Positions 43,730-48,194 of a stretch of DNA of 64,000 bases are shown here, in pieces; positions within the stretch are counted from its first letter, which is position 1; the number at the start of each line of letters is the position of its first letter. The position numbers and the translations under genes are program-made. Source of the stretch: Azospirillum baldaniorum (GTDB taxonomy: Bacteria > Pseudomonadota > Alphaproteobacteria > Azospirillales > Azospirillaceae); contig NZ_CP022253.1 of the NCBI RefSeq assembly GCF_003119195.2, forward strand, positions 1,258,001-1,322,000, read 5' to 3'. Under the pieces are notes generated by a model. It searched no databases. It was not told the origin of the DNA and saw only the letters and a list, made by a program, of their open reading frames with translations.

Positions 43730-43871
43730 GCGTGGCTTTTCGGGGTGTCGTTGGCGGAGCATCTCCTCATGAACGCAGCCGCTGGAATTCCGTTGCATCG
43801 CCCTCGGACGGTCATGGTGCCAGAGGCGAATGGTCATTGCACGGCGCCGGATCGTTCCTAACTTGCGATGA

Positions 43872-43886
43872 GAACATTCGCGGAAC
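43872..43886. promoter_or_regulatory. Alphaproteobacterial LexA (SOS) box
   Basis: GAACATTCGCGGAAC is GAAC-N7-GAAC, the complement of the GTTC-N7-GTTC LexA operator known in alphaproteobacteria. It lies 112 bases before recA. Confidence 0.85.
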
Positions 43887-43925
43887 TTAGGGCTTTGCGC
43901 AGGGGAACAAAGCTGGTACATTCCC

Positions 43926-43950
43926 TCTCACCGAATGACCGTTGGTGAGA
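43926..43950. other. Hairpin in the recA leader
   Basis: TCTCACC and GGTGAGA form a 7-bp stem with an 11-base loop between the LexA box and the recA start. It may shape the leader; no role is known. Confidence 0.4.
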
Positions 43951-43997
43951 TCGTTGGCCCTGGGGCCGCGGATGTGATCTAACAAGGGGAGACGGGC

Positions 43998-45077
43998 ATG
44001 TCGTCCGCACAGCTTCGTTTGGTCGAGAAGGATTCCATGGATAAGCAGAAGGCCCTGGATGCCGCTCTGGCGCAGATCGAGCGCGCCTTTGGCAAGGGCT
44101 CGATCATGAAGCTCGGCGCCCGCGAGAACACGGTCGAGACGGAGGTCGTTTCCACCGGCTCTCTCGGCCTCGATATCGCGCTGGGCATCGGCGGCCTGCC
44201 GCGCGGCCGCATCATCGAGATTTACGGGCCGGAAAGCTCGGGCAAGACGACGCTGGCGCTGCACGCCATTGCCCAGGCCCAGAAGGGCGGTGGCACCTGC
44301 GCCTTCGTGGACGCGGAGCACGCTCTGGACCCGTCCTACGCCCGCAAGCTGGGCGTGAATGTGGACGAGCTGCTGATCTCCCAGCCCGACGCCGGTGAGC
44401 AGGCGCTAGAGATCGCCGATACGCTGGTGCGCTCCGGCGCCGTCGACGTGCTGGTGGTCGACTCGGTGGCAGCCTTGGTGCCGCGCGCCGAACTGGAAGG
44501 CGAGATGGGCGACAGCCACGTCGGCCTGCACGCCCGCCTGATGAGCCAGGCGCTGCGCAAGCTGACCGGCTCCATCGCCAAGTCGAACTGCCTGGTGATC
44601 TTCATCAACCAGATCCGCCTGAAGATCGGCGTGATGTTCGGCAACCCGGAGACGACGACCGGCGGCAACGCGCTGAAGTTCTACGCCTCCGTCCGTCTGG
44701 ACATCCGCCGCATCGGCGCGATCAAGGACCGCGAGACGGTAGTGGGCAACCAGACCCGCGTGAAGGTGGTGAAGAACAAGATGGCACCGCCGTTCCGCGT
44801 GGTCGAGTTCGACATCATGTACGGCGAGGGCGTGTCGAAGGTGGGCGAGCTTCTCGACCTCGGCATCCAGGCCGGCGTGGTGGAGAAGTCGGGCGCTTGG
44901 TTCAGCTACGACGGCACCCGCATCGGCCAGGGCCGCGAGAACGCCAAGAACTACCTGCGCAACAACCCGGCCACGGCCGACGCCATCGAGGCGAAGATCC
45001 GCGGCAACGCCGGCCTCGTCGCCGACGCCATGATGGGCACCCCGGAGGCCGACGGCGAGGCCGCCACACCGGAGTGA
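43998..45077 (+). CDS. recA: Recombinase RecA
   Basis: A 359-residue DNA strand-exchange protein and SOS co-protease. Walker A GPESSGKT is at 77-84, followed by [18 protein letters not shown], Walker [27 protein letters not shown], loop 2 [26 protein letters not shown] and the C-terminal domain. The ATG at 43998 gives a slightly long N-terminus; ATG 44037 ([11 protein letters not shown]) is the alternative. LexA-controlled by the upstream box. Monocistronic with its own terminator; no recX follows. Confidence 0.98.
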
Positions 45078-45104
45078 TCCCGGACGGCAAGCCGGTTTCT
45101 CTGC

Positions 45105-45140
45105 GTGAAAGCCCCTCTCCGGTTTGCCGGGGAGGGGCTT
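45105..45140 (+). terminator. Terminator of recA
   Basis: GAAAGCCCCTCTCCGG pairs with CCGGGGAGGGGCTTTC (one mismatch) around TTTG, 27 bases after the recA stop. Confidence 0.85.
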
Positions 45141-45184
45141 TCGCCGTCTTGCCGGGCGGCTGGAAAGACCTTACATTCAGGCTG

Positions 45185-45214
45185 GGCGGACGGGTGTTCC
45201 AGCACCCGTCCGCC
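45185..45214. terminator. 12-bp hairpin downstream of the small ORF
   Basis: GGCGGACGGGTG and CACCCGTCCGCC form a perfect 12-bp stem with a 6-base loop, ten bases after the stop of the minus-strand peptide gene. There is no T run. Confidence 0.5.
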
Positions 45215-45223
45215 GGCCCGGTC

Positions 45224-45298
45224 CTAGCGGTTCAGGATCTCAAGCAGCAGCTTGAGCGCCCGCAACAGCAGGATCAGGAGTTCGAGGATCTTTCTCAT
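45224..45298 (-). CDS. Possible 24-residue leucine-rich hydrophobic peptide
   Basis: A short frame encodes MRKILELLILLLRALKLLLE followed by ILNR. About half the residues are Leu, with basic residues at regular intervals, so it predicts a membrane-binding amphipathic helix. Its ATG at 45298 has a perfect AAGGAGG Shine-Dalgarno 7 bases upstream, and a 12-bp hairpin follows the stop. It could be a membrane peptide of the type I toxin sort, a small regulatory membrane protein, or a leader. I do not recognise it. Confidence 0.5.
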   Translation of the reverse strand: MRKILELLILLLRALKLLLEILNR

Positions 45299-45524
45299 CC
45301 GTCGAGCCTCCTTGCTGGCGGCGGGGCGGTGGCCGATTCCACCGCCCGTCCGCGCCGACGATCATGCAAATGTGTGGCGCTCCGTCCACGCGGCCTGTCG
45401 CCGCGCAGGGGAGTGGCGGGCACTCGGTGGACAGCCACCGCAAGTCACGTTAAAAGCACGGTTCGGCCGCGAACAAGGCCGCGCCGCCGATTGTAGCCGA
45501 CCGTAGCCGGAGCCTGGACAGCTT

Positions 45525-48194
<2,670 letters not shown>

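Follow-up and report, generated by a model that had tools for sequence, protein, structure and literature searches.

The 24-codon open reading frame (ORF) at 45224–45298, on the minus strand of the 64,000-nt stretch of Azospirillum baldaniorum DNA analyzed here (the window), is no lone ORF; by its sequence it belongs to a multicopy family, and at this chromosomal locus there is probably one of the family's type I toxin-antitoxin-like cassettes, controlled by a cis-antisense RNA. Since its mRNA is predicted to be folded and is faced by an opposing promoter, this leucine-rich (Leu-type) family points to a membrane-active toxin under cis-antisense control. Support for the original prediction, a type I toxin-like membrane peptide, comes from the family, the amphipathic helix, an mRNA that buries the Shine-Dalgarno (SD) sequence and the conserved antisense promoter; toxicity itself is predicted.

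Azospirillum is a genus of root-associated nitrogen-fixing bacteria. If our reading is true, it carries a multicopy family of membrane peptides under antisense control that has apparently not been described before. Among the matches listed in open-access main texts (subscription papers and supplements lie outside this set) none deals with a type I system of Azospirillum, and the main text of an A. brasilense small-RNA paper (PMC7685610) contains no occurrence of recA, alanyl or toxin.

The leucine-rich peptide and its family

The ORF runs from ATG to TAG and encodes MRKILELLILLLRALKLLLEILNR, a putative toxin of 24 aa with 11 Leu and three Ile residues. It is predicted to form an amphipathic membrane helix, as had been proposed, with a helical hydrophobic moment significant at p = 0.003. 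Family peptides are 21–27 aa long, within the limit of about 60 aa for hydrophobic type I toxins with a membrane helix, and 67 of 72 distinct ones are predicted to be amphipathic at p < 0.05. An ideal AAGGAGG site does precede the ATG, at 45307–45313 (minus strand), but its spacer is 8 nt and not the 7 originally given. The predicted 12-bp hairpin after the stop codon is present at 45214–45185. Four Leu-rich peptides searched against Pfam and NCBIfam models had no match, the single Pfam match of five other peptides, to GYR, is at chance level (E = 4.8), and an Rfam search of 43800–45700 returned 10 weak matches, none at the gathering score.

Conservation in relatives, on which the original prediction could be checked, was found at both the peptide and the DNA level. 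A profile of 28 peptides matches 44 of 45 Azospirillum genomes, with 1–8 copies in each; across the order it matches 44 of 82 genomes, all Azospirillum, and across the class 2 of 385, both Azospirillum. One Azospirillum genome (G033) has no copy by the peptide profile or by the RNA model described below. The DNA from 45420 to 45170 matches 37 of 37 genus genomes at E ≤ 0.01, one to six times each, a count that includes weak matches without an ORF in G029 (L103) and G033 (L102); outside the genus there is a single 25-nt match among 24 genomes.

Of 130 loci collected (L001–L130), 117 have an intact ORF by script, and some of these are the same place collected more than once; distinct copies number 103. 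The 13 loci left out of the counts are decayed or doubtful: the stop codon is lost at three places (L022, L037, which is the same as L130, and L059), a frameshift has hit L061, L025 and L104 are degenerate, L093, read by eye, seems to shift frame within an A-run, and L102, L103, L106, L107 and L110 are weak DNA matches with no visible ORF. At a further locus, L202, neither the full ORF nor the antisense promoter is left.

The family consensus is M(E/K)(K/E)ILTLLILLLQxVKxxLDLLNR, with EIVKRLLDLLH as an alternative ending and in-frame variants of 21–27 codons. Among 52 distinct 24-codon ORFs, K16 is present in 51, D/E20 in all 52, and the N and the R of the NR end in 45 each; on the predicted helix K16, D/E20 and often R24 share one stripe. 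The hydrophobic core and this polar stripe are kept in the family, whose ORFs were pre-selected as intact; the simulation of stops and hydrophobic core is biased because its ORFs had been chosen both for being intact and for being LIV-rich. In the same 52 ORFs dN/dS is no better than moderate, 0.45–0.51, for close pairs and 0.85–1.10 for distant pairs, whose synonymous sites are also under RNA constraint, which bears on the latter value. The two shifted forward frames give pN/pS of 1.09 and 1.21.

There is little sign of phage origin or plasmid spread of the cassette. The start region, searched for as an exact DNA pattern, occurs in 60 stretches among 84,980 species genomes, 58 of them in Azospirillum records and two in ‘Roseomonas genomospecies 6’, and in none of the viral contigs; the best PHROGs match has an E-value of only 0.055. 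A distant blastn search with 45050–45540 found three records, all Azospirillum, comprising two cassettes and one alaS match. In many genus genomes two Leu-type copies lie about 27–33 kb apart in convergent orientation; in the window's genome these are G000:C1:956599 (+) and 988756 (−), and such pairs are likewise seen in G005, G008, G012, G013, G017, G019, G020, G031, G034, G036, G061, G062 and G068.

RNA folds and the opposing promoter

The copies have a common anatomy: a 5′ hairpin, an SD buried by the start of the ORF, a hairpin within the ORF, a 3′ hairpin and a promoter on the opposite strand. Predicted folding of the sense RNA is very strong (z = −6.57; none of 200 shuffles folds as well), and so is that of the antisense strand (z = −6.70). 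On the minus strand the 9-bp 5′ leader hairpin lies at 45324–45347 (GGGCGGTGG-AATCGG-CCACCGCCC), and its pairing is kept across copies despite changes in the stem; GGGCGGTGG/CCACCGCCC, GCGATGGCGG/CCGCCATCGC and GCAGTGGCGG/CCGCCACTGC are paired throughout. The hairpin within the ORF (45239–45256, minus strand; CTCAAGC/GCTTGAG) spans codons 15–20 and covaries across codons: base 1 of codon 17 and base 3 of codon 18 form C-G in 23 of 41 copies and G-C in 15, and are unpaired in three. This is a clear case of RNA folding shaping a coding sequence, and the ORF also contains nucleotide blocks that are invariant across copies. The 3′ hairpin (45185–45214, minus strand) has a 12-bp stem, GGCGGACGGGTG/CACCCGTCCGCC, a 6-nt loop and no U-run; in the family alignment 10 of its 11 counted pairs show two-sided changes that keep the pairing. 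For the in-ORF and 3′ helices together, which the pair-count test covered (alignment of the 5′ hairpin needs shifts), 91.7% of cells pair compared with 76.5% in shuffles, and the covariation score is 0.445 compared with 0.178 when shuffled (0 of 500 reach 0.445) and at most 0.127 when slid.

The SD is predicted to pair with ACTCCT in codons 6–8. Its mean accessibility is 0.10, against 0.30 in synonymous recodings, and is the lower in 38 of 41 copies; the fold is stronger than that of the recodings in 41 of 41, with p-values for the fold and recoding tests that overstate independence because the copies are related. Accessibility of the start codon is lower than in the recodings in 27 of 41 copies, which is not significant (p = 0.10). 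These modeled folds indicate that codon choice hides the SD, so that the mRNA fold expected to restrain translation of a type I toxin would act here at the SD.

Past the 3′ hairpin, an alignment of the 103 copies shows CAAG and a second block that are constant, separated by a spacer of variable sequence. Read on the opposite strand these form a promoter, which in the window (plus strand, 45149–45177) has a −35 TTGCCG at 45149–45154, a 17-nt spacer and a −10 TACATT at 45172–45177. Defined by rule as TTG-N3, 16–18 nt and xAxxxT, with the −10 ending 44–51 nt past the stop codon, it is found in 101 of 103 distinct copies and in 39 of 41 less similar ones. Shuffles satisfy the rule in 5.95 ± 2.5 copies (maximum 14 in 200 runs) and the other strand in 4 of 103, figures whose significance is inexact because the rule was set after the alignment, the shuffles keep base composition only and the copies are related. 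Many divergent copies have a perfect TTGACA −35, and the two exceptions to the rule (L080 and L101) retain a TTATCT-like box.

The predicted antisense RNA would extend from 45184 to 45360 (plus strand), its start and end being deduced from the promoter, and would span the 3′ hairpin, ORF, SD and 5′ hairpin. For the sense RNA a weak possible −10 box, CATGAT, lies at 45361–45366 (minus strand) and would place the start site near the 5′ hairpin; 36 of 101 copies have −10-like hexamers there, compared with 17.4 for shuffles. Terminators were found in the antisense direction in 21 of 102 copies and in the sense direction in 24 (shuffles, 5.3); with 21 against 24 there is no strand preference, and no strand-specific antisense terminator was found in the 102 copies. 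Two kinds of repeat lie upstream of some cassettes. At L172, L173, L175, L177, L180, L182 and L183, all in one sister genus, a long inverted repeat, AATAGGCGAGACGCC ... GCGTTCGCCTATT or a variant of it, stands ahead of the 5′ hairpin; several of these repeats end in an antisense-strand T-run and could be antisense terminators (read by eye). Many copies have the palindrome-like CACGCATGCGTG (L031) or variants (e.g., L035 and L109) roughly 50–70 nt ahead of the 5′ hairpin, at a distance that varies.

We envisage that a short minus-strand mRNA encodes the 24-aa amphipathic helix, which would insert into the inner membrane and, in excess, depolarize it. The mRNA would be kept near-silent in two ways, by its own fold, in which the first codons pair with the ribosome site, and by the cis-antisense RNA from the promoter past the 3′ hairpin, which would cover ORF and leader. 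The presumed duplex would block translation and undergo double-strand cleavage, and the toxin might be released under stress.

Different peptides in a similar RNA frame

We derived a covariance model (R1), whose E-values are rough, from 41 Leu-type copies. Within the order it matches 57 of 82 genomes, which represent 4 of 13 genera, and across the class 4 of 385. Outside the genus there are 20 matches at E ≤ 0.05 in 13 genomes. Among the 15 best (L172–L186), 14 have an SD and an ORF of 25–29 codons, L182 lacking an ATG, and a strict promoter rule finds the opposing promoter in 12 of these 14 (the exceptions are L181 and L185), with the −10 ending 40–46 nt past the stop. Four other matches in sister genera (L187–L190) show no cassette, and L191 overlaps L178 on the other strand. 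The 5′ hairpin of L172, GGCGGAUAGGCCACC, is near that of the Leu type in the alignment. The peptides, in contrast, differ: those of the sister genera include MLSENKQPRSVELVFKGFGISLRLVIRF, MFGLKQPSSFELEISFLGVKLRITIQF, MLIRAFFLHLRFRFLGMAVELKLGR, MPKMPFLLVLRLPIWRRRVIHIVVRLERA and MYKTIRKVLRKFRVLIEISIKIKYGN, so that a similar RNA frame in the sister genera and Azospirillum encloses quite different peptides of 24–29 aa.

The MPF-type peptide occurs in Azospirillum as well (L206, L207, L212 and L221), including the window's own genome (G000:C1:3038868-3038939), which has at least five cassettes, four Leu-type and one MPF-type. Across the class the MPF profile matches 7 of 385 genomes. L222 and L223, in genus genomes, are full cassettes; two further genomes of the taxonomic family have the peptide, but L225 has no promoter by the rule and L224 no stop in the length read; the matches in G190, G282 and G289 lack the cassette anatomy and look like chance. 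A weak R1 match in another family of the class (L230 in G058, E = 0.0016) has a GC leader hairpin, an SD and a 26-aa hydrophobic ORF, MKLQIIALILQIITVVALVANIVHHW, but the rule finds no promoter there; this match might represent a remote member of the family or be due to chance. For four non-Leu peptides the helical moment is not significant, and the MLIRAFF-type peptide has a strand-like moment at 160 degrees (p = 0.003); non-Leu peptides thus need not act like the Leu type.

The sequences make common descent of the RNA frames of the different cassettes likely, although the similar frames may instead be convergent hairpins. A further step, which we regard as evenly balanced, is that the Azospirillaceae have a modular type I system in which unrelated toxin peptides are exchanged within one inherited RNA frame. 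The proposed frame, on which we are equally divided, would consist of a GGCGGA-N2-GGCC leader hairpin, the SD, the 3′ hairpin and, at an almost constant distance, a promoter on the opposite strand; with the same reserve, the peptides exchanged would be Leu-rich helices, the W/R-rich cationic MPFxLVL type and at least three others. If the modular reading is true, what is conserved is the regulation, and it is the toxin that can be replaced. Finding different peptides in one RNA frame makes a general question testable, namely whether the toxin is exchanged and the antisense control retained as type I systems evolve.

Known systems, alternative readings and the recA neighborhood

In the E. coli TisB/IstR-1 system, as outlined in part of PMC8309996, TisB is an amphipathic helix of 29 aa in the inner membrane, its polar stripe bearing charges that alternate, and its mRNA has an inhibitory structure and an RNA antitoxin. 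The Azospirillum cassette resembles this outline in its short amphipathic helix, with a predicted polar stripe of the TisB kind (helical moment, with K16, D/E20 and R24 frequent), and its folded mRNA, and would also share an RNA antitoxin. It differs in lacking a LexA-type box (250 nt upstream, 117 copies), in having several copies per genome, in an antisense RNA that would overlap the whole ORF in cis, and in Leu-type peptides without a Pfam or NCBIfam match. DinQ of the E. coli DinQ/AgrB system is described in sections of PMC3567139 as a 27-aa single membrane-spanning peptide that depolarizes when overproduced and is subject to antisense RNA, mRNA processing and LexA control, the repressing RNA being a neighboring one with a 31-nt complementary stretch. 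As far as that description goes, a short membrane peptide and an antisense RNA (predicted in Azospirillum) are common to both, whereas the Azospirillum cassette lacks a LexA-type box, and the RNA from its opposing promoter would overlap the ORF.

Helicobacter pylori belongs to another phylum. Its AapA/IsoA systems, in the account given in part of PMC8309996, comprise several homologous loci with a cis-encoded antisense RNA, AapA1 having 30 aa, and a toxin mRNA that undergoes structural rearrangement. Likened by description, they are similar in their multiple loci, short peptide and cis antisense layout; in Azospirillum, unlike there, the start of the ORF itself hides the SD. Ldr/Rdl and Ibs/Sib are further short hydrophobic peptides with antisense RNAs, some of them multicopy. 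A review (PMC7472228, in part) describes the Fst/Ldr families in similar terms, as short hydrophobic peptides with antisense RNAs. The Leu-type peptides are set apart from Ldr/Rdl, Ibs/Sib and Fst by family models alone, having no Pfam or NCBIfam match.

The same anatomy would be expected if the membrane peptide were regulatory and not toxic, acting as the small partner of a membrane protein, with the antisense RNA tuning its dose. The family is kept over many species, and K16, D/E20 and the NR end could form a binding face; variable copy number, decayed copies and differing peptides in a similar frame suit a toxin better, and we consider this alternative rather unlikely. It is improbable that the conserved entity is a structured RNA on either strand with an incidental ORF. 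Very strong folds on both strands, invariant blocks in the ORF and a dN/dS near 1 for distant pairs fit such an RNA, but the SD and ATG are kept, as are the hydrophobic core and polar stripe (in ORFs pre-selected as intact), length varies in frame from 21 to 27 codons, and the other peptides have an SD and ATG at the same position in the frame.

That alaS lies downstream on the plus strand in the window, with its ATG 341 nt beyond the predicted antisense start and the promoter of this copy pointing toward it, would suit a long regulatory leader of alaS driven from this promoter. As a general role this is rejected: the promoter of L064 on a B510 plasmid (TTGACA-N17-CAATAT) faces the 3′ end of FtsK with no listed gene in its direction, and in a rough gene call of 57 loci (which contain near-duplicates, and of which L002–L005 were called wrongly) the neighbor lies 28 times in each orientation and is absent once. 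We hold the leader reading to be very unlikely. Hardly any likelihood attaches to a small mobile or repetitive (REP/MITE-like) element that happens to hold an ORF: several dispersed copies in most genus genomes are what it would produce, but the exact start pattern is absent from viral contigs and the recA–alaS position is common to 11 genomes.

The link to DNA damage that had been suggested from the proximity of recA is not supported. Exact GAAC-N7-GAAC or GTTC-N7-GTTC boxes occur within 250 nt upstream of none of the 117 copies, where 0.5 would be expected by chance. A LexA-type box, GAACATTCGCGGAAC, lies at 43872–43886 upstream of recA, where the window has its one GAAC-N7-GAAC; as 1.31 matches are expected in the window by chance, its place and not the count is the argument. 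With such a box at recA and none in the 117 cassette upstreams (exact alpha-type boxes were scored), SOS control was rejected, as was a partnership with recA, because the recA–alaS position is specific to one clade and other copies lie elsewhere. Of 30 alaS loci read in 45 genomes, 12 have recA in the flank, and the cassette is present in 11 of these and absent in G020; in G013 and G006 the cassette lies beside alaS and recA was not found within the fetched flank. Two annotated plasmid records place a paralogue between an FtsK gene and znuB and list no gene at that spot, an absence that is uncertain since the gene table of those records is incomplete. In G020 (L148) the recA–alaS gap is 1008 nt, and another coding-like stretch replaces the cassette. 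In the window an inverted repeat at 45108–45144 (read by eye), likely the recA terminator, separates recA from the cassette.
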